A DNA stretch of 64,000 nucleotides, taken from Talaromyces rugulosus (taxonomy: Eukaryota; Ascomycota; Eurotiomycetes; Eurotiales; Trichocomaceae). Shown here piece by piece: positions 36,213 through 48,666 of the stretch (the first letter of the stretch is position 1; every line of letters begins with the position of its first letter). Below the pieces are notes generated by a model. That model was not told the origin of the DNA. It did not search any database and saw nothing but the letters and a program-made list of their open reading frames with translations. The DNA is taken from the NCBI RefSeq assembly GCF_013368755.1, contig NC_049561.1:1116001-1180000 (forward strand). Reading direction: 5' to 3'. Position numbers and translations under genes: made by a program.

Positions 36213-38877
36213 ATGCAGCGAGATGTTGACGAAACCGGGAGGGACGAGAATACCCCAACGTGGCGGGCAGTAAGCACCATCCGACCTGCTCGTTAACAAA
36301 TCTATACCCTAACCGGAACGAACCAGTGCGACAATTGTCGGAACAGAAAGGTATTGCATGACTTCCATATTGGGAGTTTACTATCATGCTGATTTTATTC
36401 AGATAAAATGTGACAAGAGATCGCCCTGCTCGAATTGCAGGGCGTCAAGTATAGTGTGCCGCACTGCTAGTCGTCCTAAGGAACAGCGTCAGCGCATTCT
36501 GATATCTGATCAATAGTATGGAGCAGCTTATTTTCCATGTGTGTTTATGCTTCTGTTTGTTAATCCTTATTTGCATAGTGAGAAGAAAATAGAGGCCATC
36601 GAAGGCCGATTGGCCCATATAGAAACTCTGCTGGAGAATCTCACCTCGCTTTCGGCTGCAATTCCTGCCAGGATGCTGGCAACTCCTAGCATGTCATTGC
36701 AGTCATCGTCGTCGCCGTCAAAGGCGCAATTAATCCCTCCTCCCTCGACTCATCCCTCAATATCGTCGGCAGCAGCGTCGTCAACTTCATTATCCCGGGC
36801 AAGGCGTGACACAAAACCGAATGCCGCGTTCGAAGGAGATTCATCGTTAAGAGCACACTCAGTACACGCAAGCCGAGTCATTGAGAATGCCATGAATAGT
36901 GACACTGGGTTTGGCCCGAACCCGGAGATGCAGGATGCTCTTGTGGCGCTTCGGAATTTGATTGAAAAGCAGCATTCTGGGTCTGTTAATCAGGATTATC
37001 GATTTGCTGCCCCCCAGCATGGCGACGCTTCGACGGTGGATATCTCATCGGTCAAGATGCCGGCTATGGAATCTGTTGTTGGAATGTTGCGTATTTGCAA
37101 AGGTAAGCCAGAAACGGCACGATAAGATAACATGCATATTGATGCCTGCTTTTAGAAACGCAGAATTTCTTGGATCTTCCCTTTATCGATTTCGAGCAAT
37201 TCAATGAACTGTGCAAAAAAGTATACTTTGCCACGGAGGACTACTCTGTTGCCACCTTTGCCCTAGTAAATGGCGGGCTTTATCATCTCTTCAAAGGCCT
37301 GGCTTTTCTGCAAGGCAAGGAATTCCCCGAAGCTTCCGAAAACGTGAGCATATGCCGAACAAATCTAGAGTACGCTCTCAGTCGGTTCAATATCTTCACG
37401 GCGGCTACCAGTGAGAACCTGCAGGCACTTCTTATTGGGGTTGGTGATCTTCTTCCGTGTTATTCTTCTCTGTCTAACTGTTGGCCTAGGCATCGTACGC
37501 GATAGACATATCACAGCCTTCACTATGCTGGGCGCTCACCTCGACGGCTGCTCGTCTTTGCCAAACGCTTGGATACCATCGAACTGTAGGAACAGCGGGC
37601 GATAACCCCTTGGACCTGAAGCTCAGAAATCGGATGTTTTGGTTCACCTATATCTTGGACAAATGCCTCTCGCTGCGCCTTGGACATTCGTCGATTCTGC
37701 AAGATTTTGACATTACCCTCCCTCTCCCCGAGCCATCTGCCGATTCCAAAATGAGCATGTGGGACAGCATGTACCACCACTGGGTCAAAATTGGCTATTT
37801 TCAGGGCCGCATATACGAAGAACTCTACTCTCCTCGCGCACTTTCCGGACCCGCTGCAGATCGCACTCAGAGGGCCAAACAATTAGTTGCCGATATGCAG
37901 CTGTGGTATCAAGATGTTGCGCAGATTGATCCGTCGCGCGCGTACAATCCAGTTTACTATGAAGCAGCCGCGTCGTCGTCGGAAATTATGTACTACGGTC
38001 TTTCGACGCTTGCGTACAGGGCCGTGCCGCCGGGTCCGTTGGATAGTTCGATTATCTTCAGCAATGGGTGCATTGAAACAGCGCGAGCGGCGTTGAGGGC
38101 ACATCAACGCAATTCCGAACGATATAAGAATAGTAACAGTCATATCTGGCATGGATATATTTCTTGGTAAATCACTTTTTTCCTTCTCCTGCTTCCTCTG
38201 GCTATCAACTAATATTGATTTTTAGGGTCTTGATCAATTGTCCTTTTACCCCATTCATGGTCTTATTCTGCCACGCAATTGCCACTGCCAACCTCGAAGA
38301 CCTCAAATGCCTCGGAGATTTTGTATCGTCTCTCCAGTCGCCGGGCGGAACCGTCGAAGCCGCCGAAAAACTCTGGCGTCTCTGTCAAGTCTTCCACCGC
38401 GTGGCGGAGCTATACATTAAGACAAAAATAAACCACCAGGAGATGTACCAGCAACAACAACAACATACTCATCTAGATCCAGGTCATCAATCGCAAGACG
38501 CATTCCAACAACAGCAGCCTTCTGTTAAACATGCCAACGACGAAACTCTATCAGACTTCAGTACACCAAAATTCGCACCCCTTCAACAGCAACAACAACA
38601 ACAGCCTCCGCCATTCGCTACAGATGACTTTGAGCCATATCTTAGCGCCCTCGGATTTCCGAACGCCGCTGGCTTTCTGAATATCGGGGACCAAAACATG
38701 GCGACAGAAACTACCGCCGAAGACTATAGTAGCAGTAATGCTCCCAACGGGGCAAGTGATAACATCGGGTCATGGCTTGGAGGAGACTCGTTTTCCTTGG
38801 AGAATTGGTTTACCGGGAATGTTAACATTATGTCCCTTGTCGAGACGGATTTGTCTAATTTTGGTGGGACTGGGTAG
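36213..38877 (+). CDS. Zn2Cys6 transcription factor with middle homology region and poly-Gln tail
   Basis: Seven exons (36213-36269, 36327-36350, 36403-36515, 36579-37102, 37156-37439, 37490-38166, 38226-38877) give 776 aa. Introns are 50-63 bp, and every junction preserves frame and motif. The second exon is only 24 bp and codes CDNCRNRK. Joined, residues 20-46 form the zinc cluster CDNCRNRKIKCDKRSPC...CRASSIVC. A coiled-coil linker KKIEAIEGRLAHIETLLENL follows. The fungal_trans (MHR) region spans roughly 220-560, with LCQTLGYHR and RNRMFWFTYILDKCLSLRLG. The C-terminus has poly-Gln blocks and an acidic, aromatic end. It is probably a nuclear pathway regulator. The target is unknown and no adjacent pathway genes point to one. 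Confidence 0.92.
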
Positions 38878-41282: not shown

Positions 41283-42146
41283 TCAAGTATGCTTCATCTT
41301 TAAGAGGAATTCAAACTGCTCTTCAGCTGCCTTATCGGTTTTAAAAACACCAGTCTTACAGCTCGTGATTGTAACACTGTTAGTTTTTTGAACCCCCCTG
41401 GTCATCACGCACATATGGACCAACTCCATCACAACTATCACTCCCTGCGGATGTAAAATTTCTTCGATGGCTTGAGATATCTGCTGTGTGAGACGCTCTT
41501 GAACTTGTAGTCTTCGTGCGTAGATCTCTGCAATTCGAGCCAGCTTGGACAAGCCTAGTATCCTACCATTAGGGATGTACGCAATATGGACCTGTTTTTC
41601 ATCGTTAAACCATGGGCTGGTTTGGTACTAGGGTCTATACCTTGCCCCAGAATGGGAGCAAATGATGCTCACATATACTGAAGATTTCGATGTCCCGGAC
41701 CAAAACGATTTCGTTATGATCCGCTTCGAAGATGGCTTTTTTCGCAACATCATATATGTTTTCTCCGTACCCCTTGGTGAAAAAGAGCATCGCTTTAGCA
41801 TATCGTTGGGGGGTTTTGAGTAAACCCTCCCGAGAAGGATCTTCCCCTACGTCTTCTAGGATGTTTCGTATACTAATCGCCATTCTGGCCTCTCGGGATA
41901 AGTCTGAGTCGCCGGATAAGTCTGCGTCGCCATTAAGGCCTTTGTCATAAAGTCTTATTAGCGACCGACTGAATTATAGACGTGTGGTGTTGTATACATA
42001 CTTGGGTTACCCTCATCAGCGACTCCCGTAGGATTGCTCTTATCAAGGTCGGTAATTGTTTCATTAACGATCGGCTTGTCTGAGGCTACAATTTTCATGT
42101 GGTCTCCAATATGGGTCACACAAAAATCTGTGTGGAAGTTTTCCAT
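41283..42146 (-). CDS. GTP cyclohydrolase I, accessory copy
   Basis: Exons 42146-42002, 41939-41641 and 41591-41283 give 250 aa; introns are 62 and 49 bp. The enzyme converts GTP to 7,8-dihydroneopterin triphosphate, the entry step to folate, pterins and 7-deazapurines. The catalytic core is complete: [21 protein letters not shown], zinc ligands Cys138 and His141 in ICEHH, Cys209 in [11 protein letters not shown], and [24 protein letters not shown]. The N-terminal ~65 residues are unlike the usual fungal enzyme and contain a small [11 protein letters not shown] repeat. A longer frame upstream to 42362 could add 72 residues. It is divergent from the four-domain enzyme across ~985 bp. Its setting beside relics and a NACHT gene suggests it is not the housekeeping folate copy. 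Confidence 0.92.
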
Positions 42147-43131
42147 TGCTAGTATGGATTGTCCGTAACTCTCAAGGTTGGCTTTGAATTTGATGGTATG
42201 ATGGAATCTGACTCTACTAGATACTAGTGGGTAAAATGAGACGGTAAATACGTTATCTAGGAGCAGTAAAATGGATAAACAGGGAAACCCGCGCAGGTTC
42301 TTCTCTCTTGCACACTTGTTTTCTTTCTTTGCTTTTTGGGAACCGGGATGATTTAGATTCAAGTTTTAGTGAGTTATGATCGGTCAAAGCAGTTACCCCG
42401 AAATATGAGCTGATAAGGGTTGCATATTACGTGAGTTGTTTAGAATGCGTTGCGATTTGTTGCCTCGTTTTTCCTGACGAATCATTATCGGGATATATAT
42501 TGATACATTTCAAAGCATATAATTTTGAATATGAGCTAATGAGAGATGTATATTAAGTGCTTCGTATTTTAGGGTTTGTGATTTGTTGCCTCGTTATCCA
42601 CCCCGGCTGCAGTATATCATATATACAGAACGATGCATTTTTGACGTGGCAATGTTGTGTAACATGCCTACAAATTTAAATAGTTGCAAGGGTATAGGCA
42701 GCTCAGGAAGATGGACTAGACTTAAAAAGGGTTAGTCGAACTCATCTAATGGCCCCTAGTACTGCAGCATACTGAAAAAGTCAGTATACATAATAACTAA
42801 AGATGCACGTCACCCAACAAGATAAGTGTAGCAGCTGTCTGACTTGCTAAATCGTCCGGCTTCCCAGTAGGATTGACGCCTTGTTTGATCACAGATTTAT
42901 CGTACGAGCGGCAAGCGGGCGTTCGCATAGCAGGAGTCCAGACCTTCAAAGATGGATTGAATTAAGCACCCGACCCCATCAAAATGCGCCTACACAGACG
43001 TTTCTGTTGCACTCAATAGCAGCACCTCGTGACATTATCGTTAGTTTCTGTCTGCTTCAGACTCTGCTATTTCGGCCTGCACCAAAACTCGGCGTCATCT
43101 TTAACACTTACAAAGCGGGTACTCAAATAAA
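42147..43131. promoter_or_regulatory. Divergent promoter region between GTP cyclohydrolase and the four-domain enzyme
   Basis: The two starts face away from each other over 985 bp, so shared control is possible. A repeated block occurs twice: GATTTGTTGCCTCGTT at ~42451 and ~42580, each following a GAGCTGATAAGGGTTGCATATTA- or GAGCTAATGAGAGATGTATATTA-like stretch. This is a diverged direct duplication of ~90 bp at ~42400-42595. A plus-strand frame at 42881-43135 is not convincing. Confidence 0.5.
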
Positions 43132-46100
43132 ATGAACAGCCTCGACTCACTGAAGCGAGCCCTCAGACAAGAAGTCCAGGAAACCGGATTCTCCGCGAAG
43201 CGCACATTGTCTAATACACAGTACAGCGCCGGTTTCAATATCTTGTTGCAAGACTCGGGATGGATGACGTACCAAAACTTCGTCATCCCTCAATTATGTC
43301 AGCTACTAACATCTTTCTTCAAATTGCGTGCCAGCATCTCAGTTTTGGAGATTGGACCTGGTCCGAAGAGTGTGATTGGATATCTTCCAAAACATTTGAG
43401 GCGGATCGTTAGAAAATATACGGCGTTTGAGCCTAATATATTATTTGCTACAAAACTGGACGAATGGCTTCGTTCTGAGACAGATTCTCCGCTACCCTGT
43501 CTAACGAACTTGCCTGATATTCATAAAATTCCATTCAGTGGGGGCGACGACATAGAAAGTGGTCGGAATGATGAAAGATACGACATCATACTATTTTGTC
43601 ACAGCATGTATGGCTTGAAACCAGAACATAGATTCATTCAACGAGCCCTGAATATGCTTGTCGAGCAGCCACGTCACGGCATAGTGGTAGTCTTCCACCG
43701 TGACAGACCCATTCAACTTGGAAGCATGGTGTGCCATCGGGTAGCTTCATTTCCTAACGGAGAAGTTCGTGTGGCAAATCGCGACGGAGAACTGGACTCT
43801 TTTGCTTCCTTCTTGGCAGGATTCGTCATGCAAGACGCAATTATGGATAAAGATATTCAAGCCAAGTGGCGTGCAGTGTGTCGCAAATTAGGATATAAAA
43901 AGGAATTCGACCCAGATCATCTATTCTTCGGCTCACCCAACATCATGGTGGCTTTTACTCAAAAGGCGGACAGGTTGGGAGAGATAATGGCGCATGTGCC
44001 GTTGACGAGGGACGACAGAATAGTCAAGAACTGGGAGGCTCGCCTTCACTGTGCTGCCTCAGTTTTGAGACCGACTGAGATTGCACAAGTCCAAAAATGC
44101 GTTCGATGGGCTCGAGGACACAACGTCAGTTTAACCGTCCTCGGTGGGGGCCATAGTGGACATTGTTTATGGCCGCACGTTGTCTCGGTTGATATGGGCT
44201 CCTTTGACCGTGTGCATGTGCTGGCAAGAGAAGAGGGACAGGAGCAATCAAGTCACTTGGTAGTCGCCGAAGCTGGTTGTAAAACAGGAGATATTGTGAG
44301 GGAGACCATGGCGGCTGGCGTGACAGTACCTTTGGGCTCTCGTCCAAGCGTAGGTGCAGGGCTGTGGCTACAAGGGGGCCTGGGACACCTATCAAGATTA
44401 TACGGTCTCACCTGCGACGCCATCGTAGGTGCCGTGATAGTCAGCACCTCCAGTAAGGTCCTCTGCGTTGGGCTCGTTCCTGATCAACTCCAGCCGGCTG
44501 ACGCCATTCGCCCGGAAAACGAATCTGATATCCTATGGGCAATTAAAGGCGCTGGAACCAATTTCGGCATCGTGATCAGCGTAACTTTTGAAGGGTTCGC
44601 CGCTCCAACCTATTTGTGCCAAAGTTATGTGGTCTCGCTGAGCGATCATGTCGATGCCCAGCTCAAACTCGGTGATTTTGACAAGCTTCTCGCTAGCCAG
44701 CTTCCGCGCAACTGCTCTGCAGACGCATATCTTTACTGGGATGCCGGAAAGCTGCGTCTTAGTGTGACGACGCTCGAATCTCACCAGAGCAAGTGTGACT
44801 TTGCGCCAACCACAGCTATCACCACGCCCGCTCTTGCATATTTGGAGCAGGCAGGAGACCCCAGGTTCGTGAATGGTGTGGAGCTGTTCGATACTGAAAT
44901 GTACATGTCCACCATGCATGGCGGAGGACACGGCGGTGGCAAAACCTCCTCTTTCAAGCGATGTATTTTTTTGAAACATGTCGGAAAAGCAGAAGTCGCT
45001 GATATCCTTGTAACAGCAATTGAAACACGCCCTACACAACTTTGTTATCTCCATCTACTCCAAGGTGGCGGGGCTATTGGCGATGTTGCGCCGAAAGACA
45101 CCGCATTTGGTTGCCGGGAATGGGATTTTGCCTGTGTGATCACTAGTGTCTGGCCTCGCGAACAAACTGATATCGCGCCATGTGCTGTGCAGTGGGTCTA
45201 TAATGTTGCGGAGAACTTGATGTCTGTGAGTAGTGGAGCTTACGGCGCTGATCTTGGGCCGGATCCTAGAGATATCGTGCTATCAACAAAGGCTTTTGGA
45301 CCAAACTGGCAGCGACTCGCCACTCTCAAACAAAACCTAGACCCACAAAACGTTCTGGCTTACGCCTGCCCGATTCCGAGATTAAAGCTCATTGTTCTCG
45401 TCACGGGTGAAAGCGGCGCTGGTAAAGATTATTGTGCTGAGATATGGGCTTCCGAATTCATTGGATATACCCAAAAAACCATCACGGCGTGTGTAATCAG
45501 CATTAGTGATGCGATCAAACGAGAATACGCGGTGGCTACCGGTGCTGATATCAAAAGCCTGCTTTGGAACCGTACCTACAAGGAGCAACATCGGCCAGCG
45601 TTGACCAAGTTCTTCCAGGAAAAAGTGCGGCAACAACCTCGTCTCCCGGAACAGCAATTTTTGAACGTGGTGAATAATAACACGGATGTGGATGTTTTAC
45701 TGATCACGGGAATGAGGGACGAGGCGCCAGTCGCCGTCTTTTCTCATCTGTACCCTGACAGAAGGCTCGTCGATGTTTACGTTCAAACAAGTGAGCAGAC
45801 ACGGCGAAGTCGCCACGCTGGTAATAATAACGAAGATAACGACAGTGGAAACACCGAAACCAGGCCGAATAAAACTCGATTAAATTATCACCCTAGTTTC
45901 ATCTTCGAAAACGAGGAGACCGGAACTAGGGCGGCAGAATTGTTCGCTTCAAACTGCCTGCTTCCATTTTTCCACGAGGATTTGCAGAAACTAGATAGTA
46001 TGGTGCGCCGGGTACCTAACTTTCCACGTGTAGACATCGAGTTCCGCCATGTGCTCGGTATTTCTCAGCAGCCGGATGGGCTGAGATTAACCACATCTTT

Positions 46101-46569
46101 ACTTAGAGACCAGTTCAGCGGTGATTGGGGCAACATCGATACGGTAGCATGTTGCGAGGCTGGCGGTTTCGTCTTTGCCTCTCCCGTGGCCTTACAAGCT
46201 GAGGTACCTTTGACACTGATGCGCGATGCCGGCAAGCTTCCCCCGCCTACAATTTCCATAGTCAGGCGCTCGTCTTATATCTCCTCGTACACGATACCCA
46301 ATGAGTCAATAGCTAAAGAGAAGCGAATTGAAATGCAGCCGGGTATGCTTTCTAGTGGCTCCCGAGTGGTGATTGTGGACGATGTCCTTTCCACAGGAGA
46401 GACGCTCTGTGCAATGTTACAGCTACTAACTAAAACCGGCATCAATATTGAGAATATTCACATCATGGTTGTGGCCGAATTCCCAATTCACAAGGGCCGG
46501 GAACGATTGCGCCAGCGGGGGTTCGGCAAAGTCCATATCCAAAGTCTCCTAGTTTTTGACGGTGCTTAA
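43132..46569 (+). CDS. Four-domain enzyme: methyltransferase-like, FAD oxidase, phosphomevalonate-kinase-like kinase, phosphoribosyltransferase
   Basis: One uninterrupted exon of 1145 aa. (1) Residues ~1-280 are class I SAM methyltransferase-like, with LEIGPGPKSV at ~71 and YDIILFCHSMYGL. (2) Residues ~285-745 are a PCMH-type FAD oxidoreductase of the berberine-bridge group: TVLGGGHSGH at ~334, whose first His is the usual flavin-link position, GLWLQGGLGHLSR, and the C-terminal FGPNWQRLATLKQNLDPQNV. The usual second (Cys) flavin link is Arg (SRPSVGAG). (3) Residues ~750-960 carry a P-loop GESGAGKD, then SDAIKREYAVATGADIKSLL and TYKEQHRPALTKFFQEK, the pattern of animal-type phosphomevalonate kinase. 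(4) Residues ~975-1145 are a type I PRTase with PRPP loop VVIVDDVLSTGETL. Together with GTP cyclohydrolase this suggests nucleotide or base chemistry. Confidence 0.88.
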   Translation: MNSLDSLKRALRQEVQETGFSAKRTLSNTQYSAGFNILLQDSGWMTYQNFVIPQLCQLLTSFFKLRASISVLEIGPGPKSVIGYLPKHLRRIVRKYTAFEPNILFATKLDEWLRSETDSPLPCLTNLPDIHKIPFSGGDDIESGRNDERYDIILFCHSMYGLKPEHRFIQRALNMLVEQPRHGIVVVFHRDRPIQLGSMVCHRVASFPNGEVRVANRDGELDSFASFLAGFVMQDAIMDKDIQAKWRAVCRKLGYKKEFDPDHLFFGSPNIMVAFTQKADRLGEIMAHVPLTRDDRIVKNWEARLHCAASVLRPTEIAQVQKCVRWARGHNVSLTVLGGGHSGHCLWPHVVSVDMGSFDRVHVLAREEGQEQSSHLVVAEAGCKTGDIVRETMAAGVTVPLGSRPSVGAGLWLQGGLGHLSRLYGLTCDAIVGAVIVSTSSKVLCVGLVPDQLQPADAIRPENESDILWAIKGAGTNFGIVISVTFEGFAAPTYLCQSYVVSLSDHVDAQLKLGDFDKLLASQLPRNCSADAYLYWDAGKLRLSVTTLESHQSKCDFAPTTAITTPALAYLEQAGDPRFVNGVELFDTEMYMSTMHGGGHGGGKTSSFKRCIFLKHVGKAEVADILVTAIETRPTQLCYLHLLQGGGAIGDVAPKDTAFGCREWDFACVITSVWPREQTDIAPCAVQWVYNVAENLMSVSSGAYGADLGPDPRDIVLSTKAFGPNWQRLATLKQNLDPQNVLAYACPIPRLKLIVLVTGESGAGKDYCAEIWASEFIGYTQKTITACVISISDAIKREYAVATGADIKSLLWNRTYKEQHRPALTKFFQEKVRQQPRLPEQQFLNVVNNNTDVDVLLITGMRDEAPVAVFSHLYPDRRLVDVYVQTSEQTRRSRHAGNNNEDNDSGNTETRPNKTRLNYHPSFIFENEETGTRAAELFASNCLLPFFHEDLQKLDSMVRRVPNFPRVDIEFRHVLGISQQPDGLRLTTSLLRDQFSGDWGNIDTVACCEAGGFVFASPVALQAEVPLTLMRDAGKLPPPTISIVRRSSYISSYTIPNESIAKEKRIEMQPGMLSSGSRVVIVDDVLSTGETLCAMLQLLTKTGINIENIHIMVVAEFPIHKGRERLRQRGFGKVHIQSLLVFDGA

Positions 46570-47117: not shown

Positions 47118-48666
47118 TCAACACTTGATACTGGTAATCCCAGAAAAATCCTTTCGAGCAACGCCATCGTCTTGACTGACCAAAAGACAGCGCAATTTTT
47201 CAGGTTCACTGGTAGGAAGATCCTCTACTAATTTCCGGAACCACTGTGTAATTCTACTTCGCTCTTCTCTTGCACACTCGTCCAGGCCATCAAGGACGAT
47301 GTATGCACTTTTGCATTTTTTGAAAGCAAAGTTTAAAAGCTCTTCAATCAGAGACGGCGAAGTAAGTTCCGTTTCGGTACTGCTATAGCACTTTTTGTAA
47401 AAATAGAGCAACAGGCCTCTATCCTGTTTGAGGAATTGTGCGAGGAGGCTCCGAGCAAGTGCAGGGAAATTGTTCCGATCGGAGTCATTGCGTTTGAAGT
47501 AAAAGAACAACACTAACGGAGTGGGCGTGAGCTTCTGGGCTTCCTCTATGACAAGGGAGGCGAGAACATTCTTTCCTATTCTAATGTTAGCGCCCCATTT
47601 TAAACATCAGTGCGAAAGTTGGAGTAACAACCTGTACCAGGTAGACCGCTGAGCCAGAGTAATGGCGGAATTGCAGGAAATTGTGGGTCAAACCACTTTT
47701 TGAAGGTCGGATTTTCCAAGAGCCATTGTCCAGTGCCTGGGTTATCTTTTCGGATCTCGGAAAAACGATAGTGATCAGTGTCGATATTCGTTGCCCTCAG
47801 CCATTCGTATACGGCTTCGGATCGTCTTAAATCTTCATCCTTCATTTCGGTTTCGAATCGACGATCTTCTGTTCGCCGAGACTCATGAAAGTCTTCAATC
47901 TGACTGGGGCTGGCCTCACTCTCAACGAGGCTTCTATATCGACCTATTTCGGAAACGATACTATAGAAGCGAAATTTAAGCGTGTTCCATGTGACTTTGA
48001 AAAGCTGCTTCCATTCTGTACAATGACCATTAGCAAGACGAAAAATTCGTACAGCGGGAAAAAGAAAAGTGATACAGACGTGGCTGCTGAAAATAGTCCA
48101 GTACAATGTGGTGAAACTCGAGGATTTTCTCATATATGGGGAATATAATTCGACCCATTTGAGGGTTGGCACTGAAGTAATTCTTATACTGTAAAAGAAG
48201 TGGCAGGTTCTCTCCAATGCTTTCGTATATGCCAAGAAGTTCGCTGAAGGCCTCAGTGTCCGCGCTTACTACCTGCTCTCAGAGATCAGCAGTTGAGACC
48301 TTTTAAAGCGACGAAGAAACCATACCTGTAACAAGAACCTGATGGGCCCCTATGGAGAGATGAGTTCTTATGTCACAGTTTCCTATTTCCGGAATCACTC
48401 ACCCAGATAAAAGGGACAATTTCATCATTACTGAAGAATACCTTGACCACATTTTCAAACTGCCTGACTGCCTCTAAGAAAGGTTTCAAGCGATTTAGGT
48501 TCTGTGGCCGTCGTTCCGAGTGTTGCCTAGCTTGTATATCCCCAATGGTATTTTCTAGCTCTTTGAATGTGGTAATCCTAAAAGTTTCTCGTTCTCTTCT
48601 CTTCAATGTCTTTTTGAATTCCTCGAGCAAACTCTCAAATTTTAGCTGGTAAACGTTGCTGGCCAT
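47118..48666 (-). CDS. Truncated DUF7708-NACHT protein (NLR-like STAND ATPase)
   Basis: Five exons (48666-48403, 48349-48326, 48272-48080, 48015-47632, 47575-47118) join to 440 aa. Introns are 53-64 bp. The N-terminal ~200 residues are the helical DUF7708 type (FKELENTIGDIQARQHSE, FENVVKVFFSNDEIVPFIWGPIRFLLQ, YFQQPQWKQLFKVTW). The linker GTGQWLLENPTFKKWFDPQF leads to the NACHT domain. Walker A reads GLPGTGKN, with Asn where Ser/Thr normally binds Mg. Walker B is AYIVLDGLDE. The frame stops soon after LRCLLVSQDDGVARKDF, inside the NACHT domain, so the winged helix and any ankyrin/WD repeats are missing. A +1 frame continues briefly downstream. It is either a short adaptor or a decaying NLR. 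Related proteins act in non-self recognition and cell death. Confidence 0.8.

Follow-up and report, generated by a model that had tools for sequence, protein, structure and literature searches.

The analysed window, a 64-kb stretch of the Talaromyces rugulosus genome, contains an intron-free reading frame of 1145 codons that starts with ATG and ends with TAA. From N- to C-terminus, its product combines a methyltransferase-like module, an FAD oxidase of the berberine-bridge type, a phosphomevalonate kinase (PMK)-like P-loop kinase and a phosphoribosyltransferase (PRTase); a GTP cyclohydrolase I gene lies upstream in head-to-head orientation (Table 1). The stop-free run extends over 1154 codons, compared with at most 211 in 30 mononucleotide shuffles of the window. 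The original prediction had placed four modules in this single frame, and both Pfam and full-length family alignments bear this out: PF01565, PF08031, PF04275 and PF00156 all score above their cut-offs, and PF13489 falls short with 23.6 bits on the whole 1145-aa protein (cut-off 27). The signature motifs LEIGPGP (residues 72-78), GGGHSGH (338-344), TGESGAGKD (758-766) and the PRPP loop (1079-1092) were found within four residues of where they had been predicted.

Table 1. Features of the fusion gene and its upstream neighbour (positions in the window).
Feature	Position	Strand	Basis
GTP cyclohydrolase I paralogue, 250 aa, three exons (42146-42002, 41939-41641, 41591-41283)	41283..42146	-	PF01227 on two frames; our own gene model
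Inter-start-codon region, 985 bp; two 86-nt copies of a direct repeat, 71% identity	42147..43131	.	
Single-exon gene, 1145-aa four-module protein	43132..46569	+	Open frame, Pfam, family alignments, shuffle control
Module 1, residues 1-290, class I SAM-dependent methyltransferase-like	43132..44001	+	PF13489 near cut-off, weak profile matches
LEIGPGP motif of module 1	43345-43365	+	
Module 2, residues 291-749, FAD-linked oxidase, berberine-bridge / 6-hydroxynicotine-oxidase type	44002..45378	+	PF01565, PF08031, PDB matches
GGGHSGH with predicted FAD-linking histidine 341	44143-44163	+	
Module 3, residues 750-945, P-loop kinase, animal phosphomevalonate kinase family	45379..45966	+	PF04275, PDB 3ch4/7xnd
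P-loop TGESGAGKD of module 3	45403-45429	+	
Module 4, residues 949-1145, type I PRTase related to APRT	45976..46566	+	PF00156, APRT structures, motif test
Pyrophosphate loop CCEAGGF	46150-46170	+	
Altered catalytic loop	46276-46335	+	
PRPP loop, VVIVDDVLSTGETL	46366-46407	+	

The fusion is not unique to T. rugulosus. Among the matches listed, 119 further full-length relatives cover 96-100% of the protein at 61-65% identity, and alignment over this length implies that the module order is conserved. The named full-length relatives are filamentous ascomycetes; the fusion is carried by fungi of several classes. The open frame and the conserved order suggest that the four-module protein is made from one transcript. 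Narrow searches of the open-text literature found no characterised enzyme with the same module order, in agreement with the original prediction, and the available excerpt of PMC3857490 holds nothing on the gene. The fusion is a large, strongly conserved fungal enzyme that has no described function in the open-text literature searched.

The family also includes shorter proteins. The 120 listed C-half proteins start at the kinase boundary (35), inside the oxidase module (59) or inside or after the kinase (23), and three hold parts of the methyltransferase; ten of them lie on a contig of the same size as that of a listed methyltransferase piece (112 of the 114 pieces being comparable), which indicates that at least some represent parts of four-module genes that are split or broken. 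The 114 listed methyltransferase relatives, 33 of which were aligned, have no Pfam domains other than PF13489 or PF01565, and we take these stand-alone proteins to be putative pieces of the fusion family. A tree of 63 rows, 18 of which were labelled as two-module, shows no clustering of this label: it requires 14 changes, while shuffled labels require 15.9 on average and do no worse than the real ones in 90 of 500 shuffles; labels were set by hand and some of the other 45 rows are fragments. Start positions, matched contigs and the lack of clustering led us to set aside the idea that the family descends from a separate kinase-PRTase enzyme of two modules, although genuine two-module genes may exist alongside broken four-module ones. 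Bacterial relatives (80 of the 522 loci among the matches listed) cover query residues 923-1143 only, and 22 viral-contig loci cover residues 942-1143. One C-half relative labelled as a Sphingomonadales MAG (P0228; 62% identity over 73% of the C-half) is taken as putative fungal contamination.

The methyltransferase-like module has an intact SAM motif and, when scanned alone, reaches 26.9 bits with PF13489, just below the cut-off; 25 of 34 module 1 rows match this profile at E≤0.01. Its N-terminal and SAM-binding stretch is collinear with histamine N-methyltransferase (1jqe) and type-11 methyltransferases (3i9f). These profile matches are weak and non-significant (E 0.41-1.1) and two unrelated chains appear in the same list at E 1.3-1.5; the likeness is therefore treated as a lead and not as a claim of homology.

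In the oxidase module, PF01565 (FAD_binding_4; residues 309-443, 2e-16) is found in the T. rugulosus protein and in family members, and the predicted FAD-linking H341 is kept in 119 of 120 aligned rows. Structural matches include EncM (4xlo), 6-hydroxy-D-nicotine oxidase (2bvf) and chitooligosaccharide oxidase (6y0r), berberine-bridge-type enzymes with which the module shares FAD_binding_4 and the GGGH histidine. A BBE-like C-terminal tail is seen in the T. rugulosus protein (PF08031, BBE C-terminal domain; residues 719-749, 2e-5; 25.1 bits against a cut-off of 20.6), but this domain is matched at E≤0.001 in 4 of 40 family members. Unlike these oxidases, module 2 is fused to other modules and lacks the cysteine for a second bond to FAD; the corresponding site, which we take to be R404, is an arginine in 119 of 120 rows.

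PF04275 covers residues 757-875 of the kinase module (6e-25; 87.7 bits, cut-off 33.8) and is found at E≤0.001 in all 40 family members scanned; among structures, the module matches the phosphomevalonate kinases 3ch4 (E=2e-4) and 7xnd (E=0.016). It shares with animal-type PMKs an intact P-loop ending in GKD, the S-x3-K-x2-YA and YKE-x2-R motifs and the first residue of a paired arginine, R862 (120 of 120 rows). The second arginine of the pair is absent, the next residue being D in 115 and E in five of the 120 rows, and structure alignments with the 120-row counts show that the P-loop KRK is replaced as well. In known PMKs the paired arginines serve phosphomevalonate, and the KRK belongs to the P-loop.

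The C-terminal module belongs to the PRTases (PF00156, residues 977-1116, 1e-19) and matches APRT structures with a best E of 8.9e-19. With APRT (EC 2.4.2.7; TIGR01090; 1ore, 5b6h) it shares the family, the PRPP loop and an R-x-x-GKLP flexible loop, and it is 29-35% identical to bacterial APRT-type loci (80 among the matches listed). The PRPP loop is intact: D1084 is present in all 120 aligned rows and D1083 in 119 of them, and 215 of the 235 family members scored show the loop pattern; the flexible loop is conserved as well (R1031, 120 of 120; K1035, 119 of 120). In contrast, the EYG stretch is replaced by an ISSL-like one and [AS]RG by [AV]GG, and three modules stand in front. None of the 235 scored members (of 240) has the EY motif, presumably a working part of the APRT catalytic loop, or the [AS][RK]G[FY] pyrophosphate-loop pattern, whereas the same patterns are found in 77 of the 80 bacterial PRTase loci that served as APRT controls, the other three having no readable frame. 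A conserved arginine serves the beta-phosphoryl group of PRPP according to PMC8836349, and we equate it with the arginine of the [AS]RG loop. The TIGR01090 equivalog cut-off is also missed by far (86.1 against 185.85 bits). On the motif test a true APRT was set aside, and since a separate APRT-type gene is present at C1:6127905-6128499, adenine salvage is not a missing function.

The divergent neighbour matches PF01227 in two reading frames, with scores of 135.4 and 91.8 bits, and its model keeps CEHH and HMC, which we take to be the Cys/His/Cys zinc and active-site motifs of GTP cyclohydrolase I. It is one of two such loci found in the 35.8-Mb genome; the other (C4:4899776-4900356) is 54% identical to it. 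In Rutstroemia, one predicted protein contains a complete GTP cyclohydrolase I together with the modules of the fusion, and a Dendryphion protein (P0171) starts with the GTP cyclohydrolase signature MRGVQK, a match of 11 residues at E=1.2. Among the 354 collected proteins, the GTP cyclohydrolase profile matches one (E≤1) and a motif search finds two. It is important to point out that gene neighbourhood was read in one genome, that of T. rugulosus, and that the Rutstroemia and Dendryphion links are predicted proteins that may be merged neighbours. The Rutstroemia enzyme is closer to the unlinked T. rugulosus gene, at 70.5%, than to its linked paralogue, at 54.3%, so the cases of linkage need not go back to a single inherited cluster. 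Matches to FolB and to pterin-4a-carbinolamine dehydratase are found at other places in the genome, and the part of the neighbouring frames that was scanned holds no further pterin gene. An exon-by-exon search found no PTPS/QueD match in the genome at E≤0.1, a search that a split gene could escape; this counts against a route that leads from the same precursor to 7-deazaguanine or biopterin.

The head-to-head gene, the joined Rutstroemia protein and the Dendryphion signature lead us to favour pterin modification (methylation, oxidation, phosphoribosylation and phosphorylation) over purine salvage, and we tentatively propose, at somewhat less than even confidence, that the fusion is a conserved multifunctional pterin-modifying enzyme of filamentous ascomycetes. 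The linked GTP cyclohydrolase I, presumably dedicated to the fusion, would convert GTP into dihydroneopterin triphosphate. In a conceivable order of steps, the methyltransferase module would N-methylate a pterin formed downstream and the flavin oxidase, its FAD bound to His341, would oxidise the reduced ring. The PRTase module would transfer phosphoribose from PRPP to the pterin, and the kinase would act on a phosphate ester, phosphorylating the pterin ribotide or else a pterin-methanol phosphate.

The original prediction proposed base salvage followed by phosphorylation, with oxidase and methyltransferase as modifiers. In a purine-type version, the PRTase would turn a purine, perhaps a modified one, or a cytokinin-like base into a nucleotide, the kinase would take it to the diphosphate, and methyltransferase and oxidase would trim the base. 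APRTs are the nearest relatives of module 4, and the known relative of the adjacent kinase has a phosphate ester as its substrate; the transfer of a PRTase product to a phosphate-acting kinase is still plausible. The purine part is weakened by the missing EY and [AS]RG motifs (together with the low TIGR01090 score), the APRT gene elsewhere and the linked GTP cyclohydrolase I, which it leaves unexplained and which points to a pterin rather than a purine; we regard purine salvage as unlikely. The PurR repressor senses PRPP, and a non-catalytic module 4 might similarly regulate a methyltransferase, oxidase and kinase that make a non-nucleotide secondary metabolite. Retention of the PRPP loop despite loss of the EY motif and the pyrophosphate-loop arginine would suit such a sensor, for which trypanosome APRT2, a protein with a PRPP motif and no PRTase activity, provides a precedent (PMC8836349). 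Yet the flexible loop remains conserved and the loss of APRT motifs fits a changed substrate as well; we regard a sensor as unlikely.

Coincidence is a further explanation of the GTP cyclohydrolase I neighbour, the substrate then being of another class: linkage comes from one genome, and merged gene models could account for the other two cases. By post hoc arithmetic, the chance that either of the two loci lies ≤2 kb from a given gene is ~2 in 10,000, and a second species, Rutstroemia, repeats the link; we judge coincidence quite improbable. That module 3 is a true PMK in an isoprenoid-linked enzyme would agree with its PF04275 score but is very hard to reconcile with 40.8 bits against a TIGR01223 equivalog (animal PMK) cut-off of 188.15, the altered RR and KRK residues, and an ERG8-like gene present elsewhere, whose two pieces score 266.7 and 43.3 bits and thus both stay below the model cut-off of 376.95. 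This identity was set aside on these grounds. The enzyme used by fungi is ERG8, one of the GHMP kinases (PMC13412983).

Returning to pterin modification, we suggest more speculatively, and with low confidence, that the gene and GTP cyclohydrolase I form a minimal, widespread unit for an undescribed class of asperopterin-related pterin ribotide, namely a methylated, oxidised pterin with phosphoribose, perhaps in diphosphate form. Its PRTase would then represent an APRT adapted to accept a pterin, to our knowledge the first of its kind. Asperopterin carries a methyl group and a ribose, and a methylated, oxidised and ribosylated pterin would need the types of chemistry found in the fusion and GTP cyclohydrolase I. 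Asperopterins A and B are fluorescent pteridines of an Aspergillus oryzae strain that is no longer available, asperopterin A being an isoxanthopterin glycoside according to a cited title; the available excerpt of PMC6208954 names no biosynthetic gene for them. A GO table lists pterin genes as over-represented in Penicillium solitum, with no link to the fusion gene seen in the available excerpt of PMC6330040. If the pterin link is true, it would provide the genes behind a type of fluorescent pteridine that has been known from fungi since 1969, and a case in which an APRT-related module has come to use an acceptor other than a purine.

Finally, amino-acid changes from the family consensus lean from GC to AT, both across the 120 rows (5360 against 2501 of the reverse type) and in the T. 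rugulosus protein (108 against 45), counts that stand without a control gene. Despite this lean, repeat-induced mutation of the fusion gene was set aside, as its DNA indices are ordinary (TpA/ApT 0.67; (CpA+TpG)/(ApC+GpT) 1.25).

The fusion gene comprises 1145 codons in one open frame; shuffling the window's mononucleotides 30 times gave stop-free runs of at most 211 codons. Along this frame Pfam places first a methyltransferase-like stretch (scoring slightly below the cut-off), then FAD_binding_4 plus a BBE tail, next P-mevalo_kinase and last Pribosyltran; the PDB relatives, namely berberine-type oxidases, phosphomevalonate kinases (PMKs, weakly) and adenine phosphoribosyltransferases (APRTs), agree with this assignment, which bears out the original prediction of four modules in a single frame. 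A profile of the methyltransferase module (34 rows) gave weak matches only, to a type-11 methyltransferase (E=0.41) and to histamine N-methyltransferase (E=0.85 and 1.1); two unrelated chains follow close behind at E=1.3 and 1.5.

The homologue search yielded 1087 proteins at E<=0.001, drawn from the 8000 candidates with most shared words, and the matches listed are the best 120 of these, including the window's own. The 119 others among the matches listed are 61-65% identical to the query and align over 96-100% of its length; the named organisms among them are filamentous ascomycetes. A Pfam scan of 40 full-length members, the window's included, recovered the kinase, PRTase and FAD families in all 40, the methyltransferase model in nine and the BBE tail in four (E<=0.001). 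The fusion is single-copy in the window genome: no second methyltransferase module was found elsewhere at E<=0.1 and no further kinase-family match at E<=0.001, while the oxidase part has 17 other matching places. Narrow term sets in open PMC text, which excludes subscription literature, returned no description of the four-module architecture, an absence that is not proof.

Catalytic residues are strongly conserved in the 120-row alignment of the family. The SAM motif (E73, G75, G77), the P-loop (G764, K765, D766), kinase residues K796, K817, R821 and R862 and the PRPP loop (D1084, G1089, T1091) are present in 120/120 rows and the FAD histidine H341 in 119; the window copy retains every one. 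Over the four modules it shows 54 departures (11, 20, 8 and 15) from the 95% consensus, partly at insert positions; one of them is R787C, where 115 of 120 rows have R.

Two APRT hallmarks are absent from the PRTase in all 235 scored family members (window's included; five of 240 unscored), compared with their presence in 77 of 80 bacterial PRTase loci. The bacterial loci were judged by identical loose patterns and had been retrieved through kinase and GKLP patterns, independently of the tested motifs. Because of this absence, and because separate APRT-type and ERG8-like genes exist in the genome, the labels 'APRT' and 'PMK' should not be transferred as functions to the fusion's modules.

Features of the fusion locus and related genes in the same genome
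Feature	Position	Strand	Remarks
Fungal_trans transcription factor, partial	37490-38167	+	~5 kb upstream of fusion
Degenerate direct repeat	42384-42469 and 42510-42595		86 nt, 71% identical; in 985-bp region separating the two divergent genes
Fusion gene	43132-46569	+	
NPHP3_N/NACHT-type sequence	47121-48265	-	frames 47121-47606 and 47603-48265; downstream of fusion
APRT-type gene	C1:6127905-6128499		EYG and ARG present; pieces at 147 and 30 bits vs TIGR01090 cut-off 185.85
ERG8-like phosphomevalonate kinase	C3:4572642-4574046		two pieces, 266.7 and 43.3 bits vs cut-off 376.95
Other GTP cyclohydrolase I locus	C4:4899776-4900356		54% identical to fusion's neighbour

GTP cyclohydrolase I converts GTP to dihydroneopterin triphosphate, and its gene (250 aa in the three-exon model built here) is the immediate, divergent upstream neighbour of the fusion. 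Following this enzyme, one chain could act on a pterin in four ways: the methyltransferase module would methylate it, the flavin oxidase module oxidise it, the PRPP-dependent transferase module phosphoribosylate it and the phosphate-acting kinase module phosphorylate it. Observed are only the parts, their conservation and their neighbourhood. The sugar of asperopterin A is ribose, and the compound is N-methylated. A strain of A. oryzae has been reported to produce asperopterins A and B, fungal compounds of the sort envisaged; both have a pteridine ring, and A is titled an isoxanthopterin glycoside (PMC6208954).

In Rutstroemia, a 1404-aa protein carries a complete GTP cyclohydrolase I ahead of the four modules, which suggests that the two are co-directionally adjacent or truly fused there. 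The N-terminus of the Dendryphion homologue P0171, MAMRGVQKTGA, shares 10 of its 11 residues with part of this GTP cyclohydrolase I (E=1.2). Four GTP cyclohydrolase I matches at two loci were found in the window genome; a search there for the PTPS/QueD family found no member, and the matches to FolB and to pterin-4a-carbinolamine dehydratase are located away from the fusion. Table 3 of PMC6330040 shows two kinds of gene over-represented in Penicillium solitum, those for GTP cyclohydrolase I and those for pterin-4a-carbinolamine dehydratase. The Fungal_trans factor is a possible regulator, and the NPHP3_N/NACHT-type sequence is probably an NLR-like gene.

Identity was compared over 29 rows, 27 of them, taken from P0001-P0120, with presumed class labels (that of Sarcosagium doubtful) and two, the window and Umbilicaria vellea, unlabelled: the median is 81.1% within classes (57 pairs) versus 80.0% between them (294 pairs). 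Congeners share 79-86%, the two Hyaloscypha species 79.0%, and Trichoglossum and Lepraria, of different classes, 90.9%. The near-equality could reflect inter-lineage transfer, hidden paralogues or unequal rates. Among 34 labelled rows, the nearest neighbour belongs to the same class in 17 cases versus 8.1 by shuffling; judged from these sequences, therefore, some weak taxonomic signal is left.

Three short homologues (P0164, P0184 and P0188) join a methyltransferase-like start directly to the kinase module, a layout that suggests internal deletion or odd gene models. A further homologue, P0228, represents a C-half of the family, is catalogued as belonging to a Sphingomonadales bacterium MAG and is probably fungal contamination.
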